From: Myxococcales bacterium
GTDB lineage: Bacteria; Myxococcota_A; Polyangia; Polyangiales; Polyangiaceae
Length of the DNA: 64,000 nt
NCBI GenBank assembly: GCA_023248745.1
Contig: JAHFDZ010000001.1
Span: 16,912 to 80,911, forward strand
Direction: 5' to 3'
Under the pieces are notes generated by a model, which was not told where the DNA came from, searched no databases, and saw nothing but the letters and a program-made list of their open reading frames with translations. The translations under genes and the position numbers were made by a program. This document shows, piece by piece, positions 32,929-40,240 of the stretch. Each line of letters starts with the position of its first letter. The stretch's first letter is position 1.

Positions 32929-33816
32929 TTACCAGCGCACGCGGACGCTGGCTCCGCCCAACGTAGGGGTAATTTCGACTTCTTGTTTCGGAATCGCGAC
33001 GCCGACGAGAATCATTGTCAAACCGCCCGCCATCAGGGCACCCGTCGCGCCCCAAAGAGGCGCCGTATCCGACCGTGCCGTCGACTGGTAAGCAGGCAGC
33101 GAACCCACGAGCGCTACGACGCCGGTGACCGAACCCGCGGTTATCGCAACCCCACCTAGCGTGATGAGCGCGATGGCGCCTTCGCTCAGTTGCTTCTTGT
33201 AGTAGCGGCGCTTTTCGTAGCTTCCTTCGCCCGAGTGCGGCGTTTCAATCGGCTGAAGGCGAGGAATCTCAACCCGAGTGATCTCGTGCTCAAACACGGC
33301 GAATTTCTGAGACCACGCGCGATACCCCGGCGCCGCGACTTGAATCGCGTGCTGGCCTGGATCGAGGGGTAGCGGTTCGCCCAGTTCGCTCGCAGGCACC
33401 AACTCTCCGTCGATTCTTACCGCTCCTTTCGGCGAAAGAGGACCTACAATGATCGCTTTGGGTACGCGCGCGCGCAGTGCTCCGAGTTGCTCATGCGCAA
33501 ACTTGCGGCGTTCATCACGCCCGTCGGCGATCGCCTGCTTTTCGGCTGCCGTATATGCCTGCGTGGCGCGGCCGAGGCGACCCGCCTTTTCCCAACAGAG
33601 CGCGAGGTTGAGCAACGTGCCGCCACGCGGTTCAAGGCGTTGGCTCTCGGAAAGTCGTGCGCATGCTTCTGCAAAATTGCCGTCTCGCATCAGACTACGC
33701 GCTTCATCGAACAGTGTTTGCGCGCGCGTTCCCTGATCTCCACGCGCCGAAAGCGGAAGCAAGAGTGCTACCGAAAAGCATAGACAAGCAACTTTACTTC
33801 CTATCGCCGAGGCCAT
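32929..33816 (-). CDS. TPR/PEGA-like exported protein with TM segments
   Basis: Signal-peptide-like N-terminus, 'AQTLFDEARSLMRDGNFAEACARLSESQRLEPRGGTLLNLALCWEKAGR', PEGA-like 'RIDGELVPASELGEPLPLDPGQHAIQVAAPGY'. Confidence 0.75.
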   Translation of the reverse strand: MASAIGSKVACLCFSVALLLPLSARGDQGTRAQTLFDEARSLMRDGNFAEACARLSESQRLEPRGGTLLNLALCWEKAGRLGRATQAYTAAEKQAIADGRDERRKFAHEQLGALRARVPKAIIVGPLSPKGAVRIDGELVPASELGEPLPLDPGQHAIQVAAPGYRAWSQKFAVFEHEITRVEIPRLQPIETPHSGEGSYEKRRYYKKQLSEGAIALITLGGVAITAGSVTGVVALVGSLPAYQSTARSDTAPLWGATGALMAGGLTMILVGVAIPKQEVEITPTLGGASVRVRW

Positions 33817-35272
33817 GGCTATCCAGCTCACTACCACCAGCCTTCGGGCGTGCGCTCACCTGACGATCCTGAGGCTCGGGCTGTCTGGGAGCCTCAACTG
33901 GTTTTGGCATGCGCGGTGGATTGCCAAACGTCGCTCGCATTGTTTGACGCGGGAGTTGCGGCTGCGGCACGGAGGCACCTTGCGGCACTTCAAATGTCGC
34001 GGCTGGCAATGGTGACGTCAAGGATTCGAGAGGTGGTACCACTTCTGTCTTTGGCAGGACACCGAGCGTGGCGGGCAACGCAGTCGGCTGTACGGCAGCA
34101 CGCGCTTGAAGAAAAGTGTGCGGCAGCAGTGCAGCGACACCCGCACCGACGACCATCGACACAACCGCTGTGGTCCCCCATACGTAGCCCCGCCGAACAG
34201 GTTTGCGCAGCGTTTTTGGCGCCAGCGGGAGGGAAGTCAAATCAATCAAAAGTTGATCGATTTTCTCGTAACGCCCTTCGGGCGCTTTTGAAAGGCAGCG
34301 TCCTAGAACGCGCTCAAGCTCGGTGCGTAGCGGTTCGGAAAAGCCAACCAGTTTGGGCGTCGGGCCTGACAGGACCTCGGCGCAGAGATCGGCCATCGTT
34401 TCGCCTTTGAACGCGACTTGTCCGGTGAGCAACTCGAAGAGCGTGGCGCCGAGAGACCATTGATCAGCGCGCGCGTCGAGCGAACGCGCGTTGCGGAGCT
34501 GCTCTGGGGCCATATATCGCGGTGAACCGAGGCCCATGCTCACGTGAGAAGAGGTCGCCTCGTAGACGCCTGTCACATTGCTCCCATCGAGAGTCTTGAA
34601 AACTCCGAAGTCAAGTAACTTGATCGAAATGCCGTCTGGGTCTTTGAGGCGAAACAAGTTCGACGGCTTGATATCGCGATGAACGATTCCGCGCGCATGA
34701 ACTTCGCGGAGGGCGCGACATGTCTCAAGCATCACGCCAACCGCATCGACAGGCGACAGACGTCCCTCACGCGCGAGCCATTCGCCAACCGACTCGCCTT
34801 CGAGGCGCTCCATCACCATAAACGGCGCGCCCGTTGGCAAGATGCCAGCGTCAAGCACACGCACAACACGATCGCTCTTGAGCTGCGCACTTACCTTCGC
34901 TTCGCGCACGAAGCGACGGGCAAGCTCAGGATCCTGTGAGCGCGCCACTTTGATGGCAACCCGGCGTTCGAGTGCTACTTGATACGCGTCGAAAACGTAG
35001 CCCATGCCACCAGCACCAAGCAGCCCAATGACGCGGTATTTGCCATCAACAACGTCGTCTTCCTTCAGCGGTAGGACGCCCAGGTTCATCGACGCTTGCG
35101 TCAGCGCAAAGGGCGTTAGGTTATTTCCACGGCCACTTTCTGGATACGCTGCCGCAAGCAATTCCCTGCACTCTGCACACGAATCGACGTGCTCGAGCGC
35201 AGCCGCTCGCTCCACCAAAGGGCACGCGCCGTCAGACAGTTTGAAAATGAGAGAATCCGAGAGACACGCCAT
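33794..35272 (-). CDS. Serine/threonine protein kinase with N-terminal anti-sigma zinc-finger-like motif and C-terminal TM
   Basis: 'GLLGAGGMGYVFDAYQVALERRVAIK', 'IVHRDIKPSNLF', 'LLDFGVFK', 'SPRYMAPEQL'; N-terminal 'HVDSCAECRELL' (HxxxCxxC); TM 'VWGTTAVVSMVVGAGVAAL'. Confidence 0.92.
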   Translation of the reverse strand: MACLSDSLIFKLSDGACPLVERAAALEHVDSCAECRELLAAAYPESGRGNNLTPFALTQASMNLGVLPLKEDDVVDGKYRVIGLLGAGGMGYVFDAYQVALERRVAIKVARSQDPELARRFVREAKVSAQLKSDRVVRVLDAGILPTGAPFMVMERLEGESVGEWLAREGRLSPVDAVGVMLETCRALREVHARGIVHRDIKPSNLFRLKDPDGISIKLLDFGVFKTLDGSNVTGVYEATSSHVSMGLGSPRYMAPEQLRNARSLDARADQWSLGATLFELLTGQVAFKGETMADLCAEVLSGPTPKLVGFSEPLRTELERVLGRCLSKAPEGRYEKIDQLLIDLTSLPLAPKTLRKPVRRGYVWGTTAVVSMVVGAGVAALLPHTFLQARAAVQPTALPATLGVLPKTEVVPPLESLTSPLPAATFEVPQGASVPQPQLPRQTMRATFGNPPRMPKPVEAPRQPEPQDRQVSARPKAGGSELDSHGLGDRK

Positions 35273-35390
35273 TTAAGATGCCCAGTCCACTACCCTTAGC
35301 CCCAGATCACGTTGGGTGTTAGTGACGCTTCGGGCAAATGCAAGCGACTGCGGCGTCTAGTATGGGGGTTGGCGCCCCCGAATAAAACGA

Positions 35391-36197
35391 ATGCGCAATA
35401 TGACAAAAACGGTCGAAGAAGCGTGCGTAGCTGCGGAGGTCCGTCACAGCGGCCTACGCGTGAGCCGGACTCAATTCGCCTCCTTTTTGCGCGACAAGGC
35501 GCTCCTGGCAAACGGCCAGCCGCTTGCTCATGGTGGCGACCTTGCGTTCGCTTTTTGCTGCGCGCGGGGCGACGCAATCGCGATCGCCGCGTTCGAAACA
35601 ACCTATGTTCCGCCGCTCGTTCGGCTCCTGAAGCAACAGGGCTTCTCGCTCGACCTGACCGACGAGGCTGTGCAACGCCTGCGCACTCTCCTTTTGGTTG
35701 GCGATGACGATTCTCCGCCGAAGATCACTGACTACAAAGGCCACGGGCCGCTCGACGCTTGGCTTCGTGTAACGGGTACACGATTGGCGCGAAAGCTCAT
35801 TACGCGCGACAAGCTTGCGAACGCGGAAGGCGATGACGTCCTCCTCGAAACGCGAACGATGGGCGACGATCCTGAACTGGCGTTCATCAAAGGAACCTAC
35901 CGCGGCGCGTTTCGACAAGCTTTTCGCGAAGCCCTCACGACACTTGAACCGCGGGCGAGGACCCTCCTGAAGCAACATACGATCGACGGGCTGAGTATCG
36001 ACGCGCTCGCACCGATTCATGGTGTGCATCGCGCAACGGTCGCGCGCTGGTTGCAACAAGCACAAGTCAATTTGCTGAACGAAACGCGAACGCGCTTTAT
36101 GAAACTCGCAAAGCTTGCGCCTGAAGAGTGCGAAAGCGTCTTGAGGATGGTCGAAAGCCGCCTGGACGTCACCTATCGACGACTCTCCGACATCTAA
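35391..36197 (+). CDS. Sigma-70-like factor, atypical (Myxococcota-type)
   Basis: Region-2-like segment, then region-4-like 'ALTTLEPRARTLLKQHTIDGLSIDALAPIHGVHRATVARWLQQAQVNLL'. Confidence 0.7.
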   Translation: MRNMTKTVEEACVAAEVRHSGLRVSRTQFASFLRDKALLANGQPLAHGGDLAFAFCCARGDAIAIAAFETTYVPPLVRLLKQQGFSLDLTDEAVQRLRTLLLVGDDDSPPKITDYKGHGPLDAWLRVTGTRLARKLITRDKLANAEGDDVLLETRTMGDDPELAFIKGTYRGAFRQAFREALTTLEPRARTLLKQHTIDGLSIDALAPIHGVHRATVARWLQQAQVNLLNETRTRFMKLAKLAPEECESVLRMVESRLDVTYRRLSDI

Positions 36198-38185: not shown

Positions 38186-39525
38186 TTCGCACCCCCTGCT
38201 TTTGGCATGACGCGCAAGACGACGCGCCTATCCACCAGATACGTTGCAACCACTCGCTGCAAGTCCTTCGGGGCTGACGATTCGTAGCGCGCAACGTCCT
38301 GCTTTAGAAATCCGGGGTCACCCTTCTCGGCCTCGTAGGCATTCAAGAGCGCCGCACGGGTTCGCACGGTTTGCAGACCCGAAACGAAACTCGAGAGGAT
38401 CAGATTTCGCGACCGCGTGACCTCGGCTTTTGTTGGGCCCTTCTTCGCAACGTCTTGCAACTCGAGCGCCACTTCTTTTTCGATTGCGTCAAGACTGGCT
38501 GCCGACTTTGCGACCACTTCGATCGTGAACTGCGACCCAAGAAAGCCTGAGCTCTGGCTCGCAGATACCTCTTGAGCAAGTTGCTTCTTTTCGACGAGTC
38601 GCTTGTAGAGACGACTCGCTTTGCCGCTTCCGAGCACGTTCGAGAGCAGGTCGAGGTACGCATCCTCTGCCGAGAGATGCTTTGGTGTTTGCCAGCTGAT
38701 GACTAGCTTCGGAAATTGAACGTTGTCGGTTACAGTTTCACGCACTTCGCGATCGAGACTTGTCTTCGAGTCCGTAAAGTCTGGCGCACCTGGATCGTCT
38801 GGCACGGGTGCGACAGGCATCGTCGCGAACCACTTCTCAATGGTGGCTTTCGCATCGGCAGGTTTGAAGTCTCCCGCCACGACCAATGTCGCGTTCGAAG
38901 GAACGTAGTACTTCGCGAAGAAAGTCTTCACGTCGGCAACGCTCGCCGCTTCGAGATCTTCGTGCGAGCCGATCACAGGGTGATGGTAAGGATGCTTGAC
39001 CGAATAAAGTAACTCTGGAAGTTTCAAACGAACGATGCCGTACGGCGTGTTTTCGCTCGTCTGTCGTCGCTCGTTTTTGACGACGTCGCGCTGGGCATTG
39101 AGCTTTTCGAGCGTCATGAGCGGCCCGATATCGCGCAGACGGTCGGCTTCGAGCCACAAGAAGAGCGGCAGCAGATGACTCGGCCCTTCGTCCCAATACG
39201 CTGTCCGATCCTCACTCGTCCACGCGTTGTTGTGGCCGCCTTCGGCCTCCATCATGCCGTCAAAAGATCCGGTCGGAACTCGCTTGGTACCCATGAACAT
39301 CAAGTGCTCGAACAGATGGGCGAAACCGGTGCGCTTGGGCTCCTCGAATCGCGAACCCACCTTGTAGGACAGCTCAACCACGACGACTGGAAGCGCGTGA
39401 TCTTCGTGGAAGATGACGGTCAACCCGTTGGTGAGCTTCTCTTTGGTAAAGGGAATTGAGAAATCGGCCGCGCTCGCGCTCGAACCAATGGCGGCGCTCA
39501 CAAAAGCAATGGGTACCCAACGCAT
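38182..39525 (-). CDS. M16 family zinc metallopeptidase (catalytic member)
   Basis: 447 aa, HxxEH 'GFAHLFEHLMFMGT'; start/stop overlap with the partner gene. Confidence 0.9.
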   Translation of the reverse strand: MRWVPIAFVSAAIGSSASAADFSIPFTKEKLTNGLTVIFHEDHALPVVVVELSYKVGSRFEEPKRTGFAHLFEHLMFMGTKRVPTGSFDGMMEAEGGHNNAWTSEDRTAYWDEGPSHLLPLFLWLEADRLRDIGPLMTLEKLNAQRDVVKNERRQTSENTPYGIVRLKLPELLYSVKHPYHHPVIGSHEDLEAASVADVKTFFAKYYVPSNATLVVAGDFKPADAKATIEKWFATMPVAPVPDDPGAPDFTDSKTSLDREVRETVTDNVQFPKLVISWQTPKHLSAEDAYLDLLSNVLGSGKASRLYKRLVEKKQLAQEVSASQSSGFLGSQFTIEVVAKSAASLDAIEKEVALELQDVAKKGPTKAEVTRSRNLILSSFVSGLQTVRTRAALLNAYEAEKGDPGFLKQDVARYESSAPKDLQRVVATYLVDRRVVLRVMPKAGGAK

Positions 39526-39607
39526 GGCGCGCCAGCCTACCGCAAGTGTAAGCGGACGTGGCCTTGCACGTTATCGAGGTGTGACGACGCTCGCCCTACA
39601 CTTGTCT

Positions 39608-40240
39608 ATGCTGCCGCGCGTGGATGACGAAGGGGGTCGCGTGCGTGAACTCGAGCGTACCCTTGTGGAACGCTCGCAGCGAGGCGACCGCGTGGCGATG
39701 GGCGAACTGTGCAAGATGCACGGACCAGCGCTTTACCGCTCGGTGTTGCTGCCCCGGCTTGGCAACGCAGCTGCCGCAAGTGATGCACTTGCAGAAACGT
39801 ATGCGCGGGTAATCGAAAAGGTGCACCTCTTCCGATGGCACCCGGCGGGGATTTACCCTTGGCTCCGCACGATGGCGATGAACATTGCAATCGACCATCT
39901 TCGCGCACAACGCCGTTGGAGCGTTATCTCACCAGACGACTTAGAACGCGATCTGGTCGACCATGACGCCGTTGATATGGAAGTGGAACTACTCGCGCAC
40001 CACGACCTTCAAGAAGCTCGATCGCGAGTTCAAACGGGTCTCCGTATGATTCATCCGCGGTATCGCAAAGCGATTGAGCTTCGGATTCTCGAGGACAGAC
40101 CCCGCGAAGAAGTGGCAGCGTTGCTTGACGTCTCACCACCGACGTTTGACGTGCTTCTTCATCGCGCCATGAAAGCCTTGCGCGCGGCCCTTGTCGCCAA
40201 CGCAGATGGAGCGCACGCTAGGAAAGAAGCAAGGCGATGA
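39608..40240 (+). CDS. RNA polymerase sigma factor (ECF-like)
   Basis: 'YPWLRTMAMNIAIDHLRAQRR' and 'IHPRYRKAIELRILEDRPREEVAALLDVSPPTFDVLLHRAMKALRAAL'; start at internal ATG. Confidence 0.85.
   Translation: MLPRVDDEGGRVRELERTLVERSQRGDRVAMGELCKMHGPALYRSVLLPRLGNAAAASDALAETYARVIEKVHLFRWHPAGIYPWLRTMAMNIAIDHLRAQRRWSVISPDDLERDLVDHDAVDMEVELLAHHDLQEARSRVQTGLRMIHPRYRKAIELRILEDRPREEVAALLDVSPPTFDVLLHRAMKALRAALVANADGAHARKEARR

Follow-up and report, generated by a model that had tools for sequence, protein, structure and literature searches.

The window, that is, the whole stretch of 64,000 nucleotides of DNA that was analysed, encodes a sigma factor of gmx1, a large family in myxobacteria, and, divergently from this gene, a transmembrane Hanks-type Ser/Thr kinase whose first 45 residues are, on good support from profiles and models, a zinc anti-sigma (ZAS/zf-HC2) type domain with predicted zinc binding. 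The pairing of gmx1 sigma factors with such ZAS-kinases is lineage-wide and conserved across Myxococcota, a conclusion that is well supported by the loci surveyed below. The ZAS-kinase is probably an anti-sigma factor that spans the membrane and is switched by a built-in kinase domain, in which the ZAS domain would hold the sigma factor and phosphorylation in cis would release it. The features of the locus are collected in Table 1. The source genome is a draft of 6.1 Mb in 459 contigs, and the relatives that have names in the genome collection are myxobacteria. An earlier note on this DNA had placed the kinase divergent from a sigma-like gene, with its stop overlapping a TPR/PEGA gene, and the coordinates of the open reading frames agree with this layout; the TPR/PEGA frame starts at a GTG at 33837 or, likelier, at an ATG at about 33816, and the kinase stop is overlapped.

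Table 1. Features of the gmx1 sigma/ZAS-kinase locus (positions in the window)
Feature	Position	Strand	Description
gmx1 sigma ORF	35391-36197	+	268 aa
ZAS-kinase ORF	33794-35272	-	492 aa; ZAS, linker, Hanks kinase domain, TM helix and a tail of ~105 aa
Exported TPR/PEGA-like protein	32929-33837	-	two C-terminal hydrophobic stretches; overlaps kinase stop codon
Divergent sigma/kinase intergenic region	35273-35390		118 bp; promoters would be expected here
ZAS/zf-HC2 domain, kinase residues 1-45	35138-35272	-	zf-HC2 profile, alignment, AF2 and PDB profile matches
Linker, kinase residues 46-76	35045-35137	-	Ser/Thr-containing; low-confidence AF2 helix 54-63; putative autophosphorylation region
Hanks Ser/Thr kinase domain, residues 79-336	34265-35038	-	PF00069; invariant catalytic columns
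Single TM helix, residues ~363-384	34121-34186	-	hydropathy and sequence reading

The product of the sigma gene is an ECF-like (group 4) sigma factor and a member of TIGR03001 (Sig-70_gmx1), which it matches at 197 bits over model positions 6-242 of 244, the curated cut-off being 154.6 bits. Pfam recognizes its sigma4 part as Sigma70_r4_2 (28.9 bits), and gives no recognition of its sigma2 by PF04542. An AF2 model built from 43 homologues (mean pLDDT 88.7) has ECF sigmas as its best Foldseek matches, several of them solved with anti-sigmas (6in7, 4cxf, 5wuq, 1or7), at a probability of 1.00 with E values of only 2e-3 or worse and with low TM-scores, as is expected with two flexibly linked domains. 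The gmx1 family profile, when compared with the PDB, spans sigma2 to sigma4 of AlgU (the best match, E=1e-10), RpoE, SigE and SigW. Hence, of the initial description as an atypical sigma-70-like protein, the sigma factor stands, while "atypical" alone says too little, since the protein falls into a named family and ECF sigma structures are matched by its model. The protein bears an N-terminal helical extension (residues 1-45) and a conserved C-terminal helical one (residues ~240-268), the latter lying past the region over which solved ECF sigmas can be aligned. Among 195 gmx1 sigmas, Ser/Thr residues are near-invariant in the C-terminal extension (S249 in 87%, S256 in 91%, S/T261 in 95%) and T216 is found in the HTH of 98%; the extension may offer phosphosites or a docking surface. 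A second ECF sigma factor, this one canonical (TIGR02937, E=1.9e-19), is encoded about 3.2 kb past the gmx1 gene, at 39413-40240 (+), with a small ORF and two zinc-peptidase-family-like genes in between.

A likeness to the Vibrio EcfP/PknT pair had been suggested for this locus, and it fails at the sigma2.2 region. In ECF43 sigmas, sigma2.2 is without its acidic motif and must carry a phosphate (PMC8999054, PMC13147305, PMC8103513); the region is uncharged in this type and includes a conserved Thr as phospho-acceptor. By contrast, gmx1 sigmas retain the motif, with Asp or Glu at position 92 in 195 out of 195 and position 91 acidic in 74%. Across positions 84-100 of the same 195 proteins, no conserved Ser/Thr was found (35% or less at any position). 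Since the acidic motif is kept and a conserved phospho-acceptor is missing from this region, the EcfP/PknT mechanism was rejected. With the RNAP-binding acidic motif in place, a sigma factor is expected to be active whenever it is free, and would thus need a negative regulator.

The kinase itself was correctly described as a Hanks domain followed by a C-terminal TM helix (PF00069, E=3.7e-40; hydropathy for the helix), and its tail beyond the membrane is predicted to be periplasmic. The catalytic residues K108, E124, H198-R199-D200, N205 and D221-F222-G223 are all present, in columns that are invariant in the alignment, and are intact in most ZAS-kinase members, so that the kinase is apparently active. 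The HxxxCxxC peptide quoted in the earlier note does occur at the N-terminus, although it covers only the second half of the predicted ligand set, which in full reads C3-x24-H28-x3-C32-x2-C35, with C3 outside the quoted stretch. Each of 28 aligned kinases has the four ligands in the same columns, as it has the catalytic residues, HxxxCxxC being a selection criterion for this alignment and, in A4, the first Cys too; the unbiased figure comes from kinases for whose selection that Cys was not required, in which it lies exactly 25 residues ahead of the His in 114 of 133. The search against zf-HC2 gave similarity for the family, with the domain found by Pfam in 23 of the 28 homologous kinases, and put the protein encoded in the window just below the cut-off (PF13490, 20.3 bits and E=6e-4 against 22.2 bits).

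AF2 predicts three helices for the ZAS (6-13, 19-31 and 33-42) with pLDDT of about 90. When a profile of 60 ZAS domains was compared with the PDB, the matches were 3hug (E=2.9e-8), which we take to be RslA (the entry was deposited merely as a conserved membrane protein), DdvA (8rlz, 1e-6) and, more weakly, ChrR (2q1z, E=0.011) and RsiW (5wuq, E=0.04). Residues 5-42 of the query align to ChrR 8-45, in register with the zinc ligands of ChrR, which are H6, H31, C35 and C38. The profile of the kinase ZAS domains also picks up the N-terminus of a 991-aa CHAT-domain protein (PDB 8rot, chain B; E=3.7e-5), a hint that a protease may carry this domain as well. For helix 4 of the class I domains, no conserved counterpart was found among the ZAS-kinase linkers. 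In the window kinase its place is taken only by a low-confidence AF2 helix at 54-63, and the linkers of the family vary, their median length being 28 aa while 10% have no more than 16 aa. These linkers contain 16.3% Ser/Thr against 8.6% in the kinase domains, a difference to be read with the fact that disordered linkers are often Ser/Thr-rich anyway.

The sigma/kinase pairing was followed through loci collected by a DNA pattern scan. Genes of the gmx1 family score above the cut-off in 85 of 184 genomes of the order, and 201 distinct gmx1 sigmas were collected from the matches listed at the top, which is no random draw; linkage was scored at the 106 of these loci with at least 3 kb of flank on both sides. 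Among these listed matches, a Ser/Thr kinase (STK) lies nearby at 90 of 106 loci, one whose catalytic domain is preceded by HxxxCxxC at 83 and one with the exact 24-residue spacing at 71, and the orientation of 133 sigma/kinase pairs is divergent in 78, tandem in 44 and convergent in 11. No HxxxCxxC was found in 17 control STKs that lie beside TPR/PEGA genes and away from gmx1. The proposal that the anti-sigma domain is built into the kinase is thus borne out by the PF13490 similarity, the anti-sigma profile matches in the PDB, the ligand spacing and the 0/17 controls. In the genome of the window, which has 91 STK matches above the cut-off, all four gmx1 genes (C257, C36, C265 and C200) face a divergent zf-HC2 start; in three cases the kinase is complete, and in the fourth the contig ends within the gene. 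In three genomes, each of the 20 zf-HC2 matches adjoins a sigma gene, gmx1 or other. A congener has a sigma 88% identical at one contig end and the kinase-TPR pair (TPR protein 69% identical) at the end of another contig, which is consistent with the same locus split by assembly. At about 17-18 of the 106 loci, again among the listed matches, there is no ZAS protein within ~4-5 kb (L074, L075, L051, L195, L200, L204, L222 and L231 are among them), and a shared replacement partner was looked for at these ~18 loci and none was found. A long-tailed ZAS-kinase at L276:857-3862 (-) lies beside a non-gmx1 sigma-like gene with a sigma4 match only, and so the arrangement is not strictly confined to gmx1.

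Of the two domains, it is the ZAS and not the kinase domain that forms the module linked to the sigma factor. This assignment of the sigma-facing part rests on four observations: the ZAS occurs without a kinase at a few gmx1 loci, as ZAS-1TM (L057) or ZAS-4TM (L224); sigma distances correlate best with ZAS distances; the ZAS comes and goes among kinase domains; and zf-HC2 elsewhere in these genomes adjoins other sigma factors. The distance correlation is r=0.53 for sigma and ZAS, 0.43 for sigma and kinase domain, and 0.29 for ZAS and kinase domain, which belong to the same polypeptide; the first exceeds the last in each of the 500 subsamples drawn, the mean for shuffled pairs is 0, and the order is unchanged for sigma distances above 0.45 only (0.23, 0.18 and 0.07). 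The published value for ECF/ASDI pairs is r=0.82, with a range for non-interacting controls that includes 0.53 (PMC7406223), and the measures differ; being below the former and inside the latter, our value supports a linked unit and does not prove contact. In a kinase-domain tree of 149 rows (FastTree), which contains long branches, ZAS presence changes at least seven times on well-supported branches, and the rows nearest to the window kinase by path are non-ZAS kinases beside TPR/PEGA genes. Residue covariation between ZAS and sigma is weak, with R36-D199 as the top pair, and was not used for placing the interface, the strongest shuffled maximum being greater than the observed one. Among single loci, a complete 62-aa gene at L046:5916-6104 (+), divergent from a gmx1 sigma, encodes a ZAS alone and is possibly a minimal anti-sigma factor; a protein beside a gmx1 sigma at L258:2720-4429 (-) has about six predicted TM helices between ZAS and kinase domain; and L063:2784-4988 (-) has a ZAS and two tandem kinase-domain matches, the first maybe degenerate, with similar lengths at L219 and L265.

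In the mechanism that we favour, the N-terminal zinc domain would bind the divergently encoded gmx1 sigma and keep it off RNA polymerase until an envelope signal reaches the periplasmic tail or the kinase; the kinase would then phosphorylate in cis, likeliest in the Ser/Thr-rich linker at the place of helix 4 or, alternatively, on the bound sigma, and the sigma would be freed. Class I anti-sigma domains contact sigma2 mainly through helix 4 (PMC7406223), and there is a precedent in trans for phospho-release in the mycobacterial RshA, a ZAS anti-sigma that PknB phosphorylates near helix 4, interfering with SigH binding (PMC4601284). This model is weakened by the lack of conservation of helix 4, the weak covariation, a correlation of 0.53 rather than 0.82, and the ~18 of 106 loci without a ZAS. 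Tentatively, and with somewhat less than even confidence, the loci can be taken together as a Myxococcota-wide signalling class whose anti-sigma factor would itself be a receptor-like Hanks kinase; the ZAS-sigma core would be constant, the kinase and the sensor exchanged, and autophosphorylation of the linker in cis would open the complex.

The chief rival takes the ZAS for a mere dock that brings the sigma factor to the kinase, the phosphorylated sigma being the active form; the kinase would then regulate positively, like the kinases of the EcfK/PknS and EcfP/PknT pairs. The intact catalytic residues of most of these kinases, the near-invariant S249, S256, T261 and T216 of the sigma and the phosphorylation by ECF43 kinases of their own sigmas (PMC13147305) all speak for it; yet sigma2.2 of the gmx1 sigmas is still acidic and lacks a conserved Ser/Thr, so that the ECF43 charge mechanism is unneeded, and at some gmx1 loci the ZAS protein comes without any kinase, which leaves this reading rather unlikely. 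The same kinase-less ZAS-TM proteins would suit an ordinary anti-sigma factor of the membrane that lets go of the sigma through proteolysis or through zinc or redox loss, with a kinase domain serving other targets, and so would the repeated exchange of kinase domains and the inclusion in the ZAS family of redox-sensing and membrane-bound anti-sigmas. Given that the kinase is kept at 83 of 106 gmx1 loci with its catalytic residues usually intact, however, we consider this improbable. A last reading, with the two genes neighbours by coincidence and the zinc motif unrelated to the sigma factor, could appeal to the zf-HC2 score of the kinase just below the Pfam cut-off, but it is close to refuted by the same 83 loci, by the motif's occurrence in none of the 17 control STKs and by the 20 of 20 zf-HC2 matches beside sigma genes in three genomes.

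Compared with known systems, the ZAS-kinase shares with the zinc class I anti-sigmas (ChrR, RsrA/RshA, RslA and RsiW) the domain, as judged by profile, the ligand pattern C/H-x24-H-x3-C-x2-C and a gene adjoining that of an ECF sigma; it differs from them in that a Hanks kinase replaces the sensor, cupin or plain TM, and in that helix 4 is not conserved. With the ECF43/STPK pairs EcfP/PknT and EcfK/PknS it shares a sigma gene adjoining that of a transmembrane Hanks kinase, whereas the sigma belongs to a different family that keeps the sigma2.2 acidic residues and the kinase carries an anti-sigma domain. The SigH/RshA/PknB system of Mycobacterium likewise brings a kinase and a zinc anti-sigma to bear on one ECF sigma, with phosphorylation interfering with binding (PMC4601284); there, PknB is separate and acts in trans, whereas in the ZAS-kinase the kinase is fused to the anti-sigma domain. 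The TIGR03001 family is already named. In the literature searched, no published account of it or of its kinase partner was found, nor a description of zf-HC2 with a kinase domain and a sigma factor, and we thus found no description of the fused partner, of which a mention in ECF reclassification or myxobacterial kinome papers is possible. If the Myxococcota-wide class put forward above is real, it would provide a one-protein route from kinase to ECF sigma factor, distinct from ECF43; if ZAS-kinases are the missing gmx1 anti-sigmas, a sizeable set of kinases would gain a predicted partner and output, and control of transcription by Hanks kinases would become testable in one two-gene system.

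The third gene of the locus has a different distribution. Its Pfam matches (TPR_16, TPR_2 and PEGA) are all weak and below cut-off. Of 59 related genomes, 56 have homologues of the gene, often by the dozen. A conserved linkage of all three genes had been considered; in relatives it holds for sigma and kinase (83 of 106 loci), while the TPR/PEGA gene is discarded as a dedicated third component, since away from gmx1 17 of 20 homologues follow a non-ZAS STK in the same orientation, with no gmx1 sigma. The gene lies beside a ZAS-kinase in a minority of pairs (L039, L040, L061, L076, L250, L264 and L266 among them), and is best read as a general STK companion with no sigma specificity.
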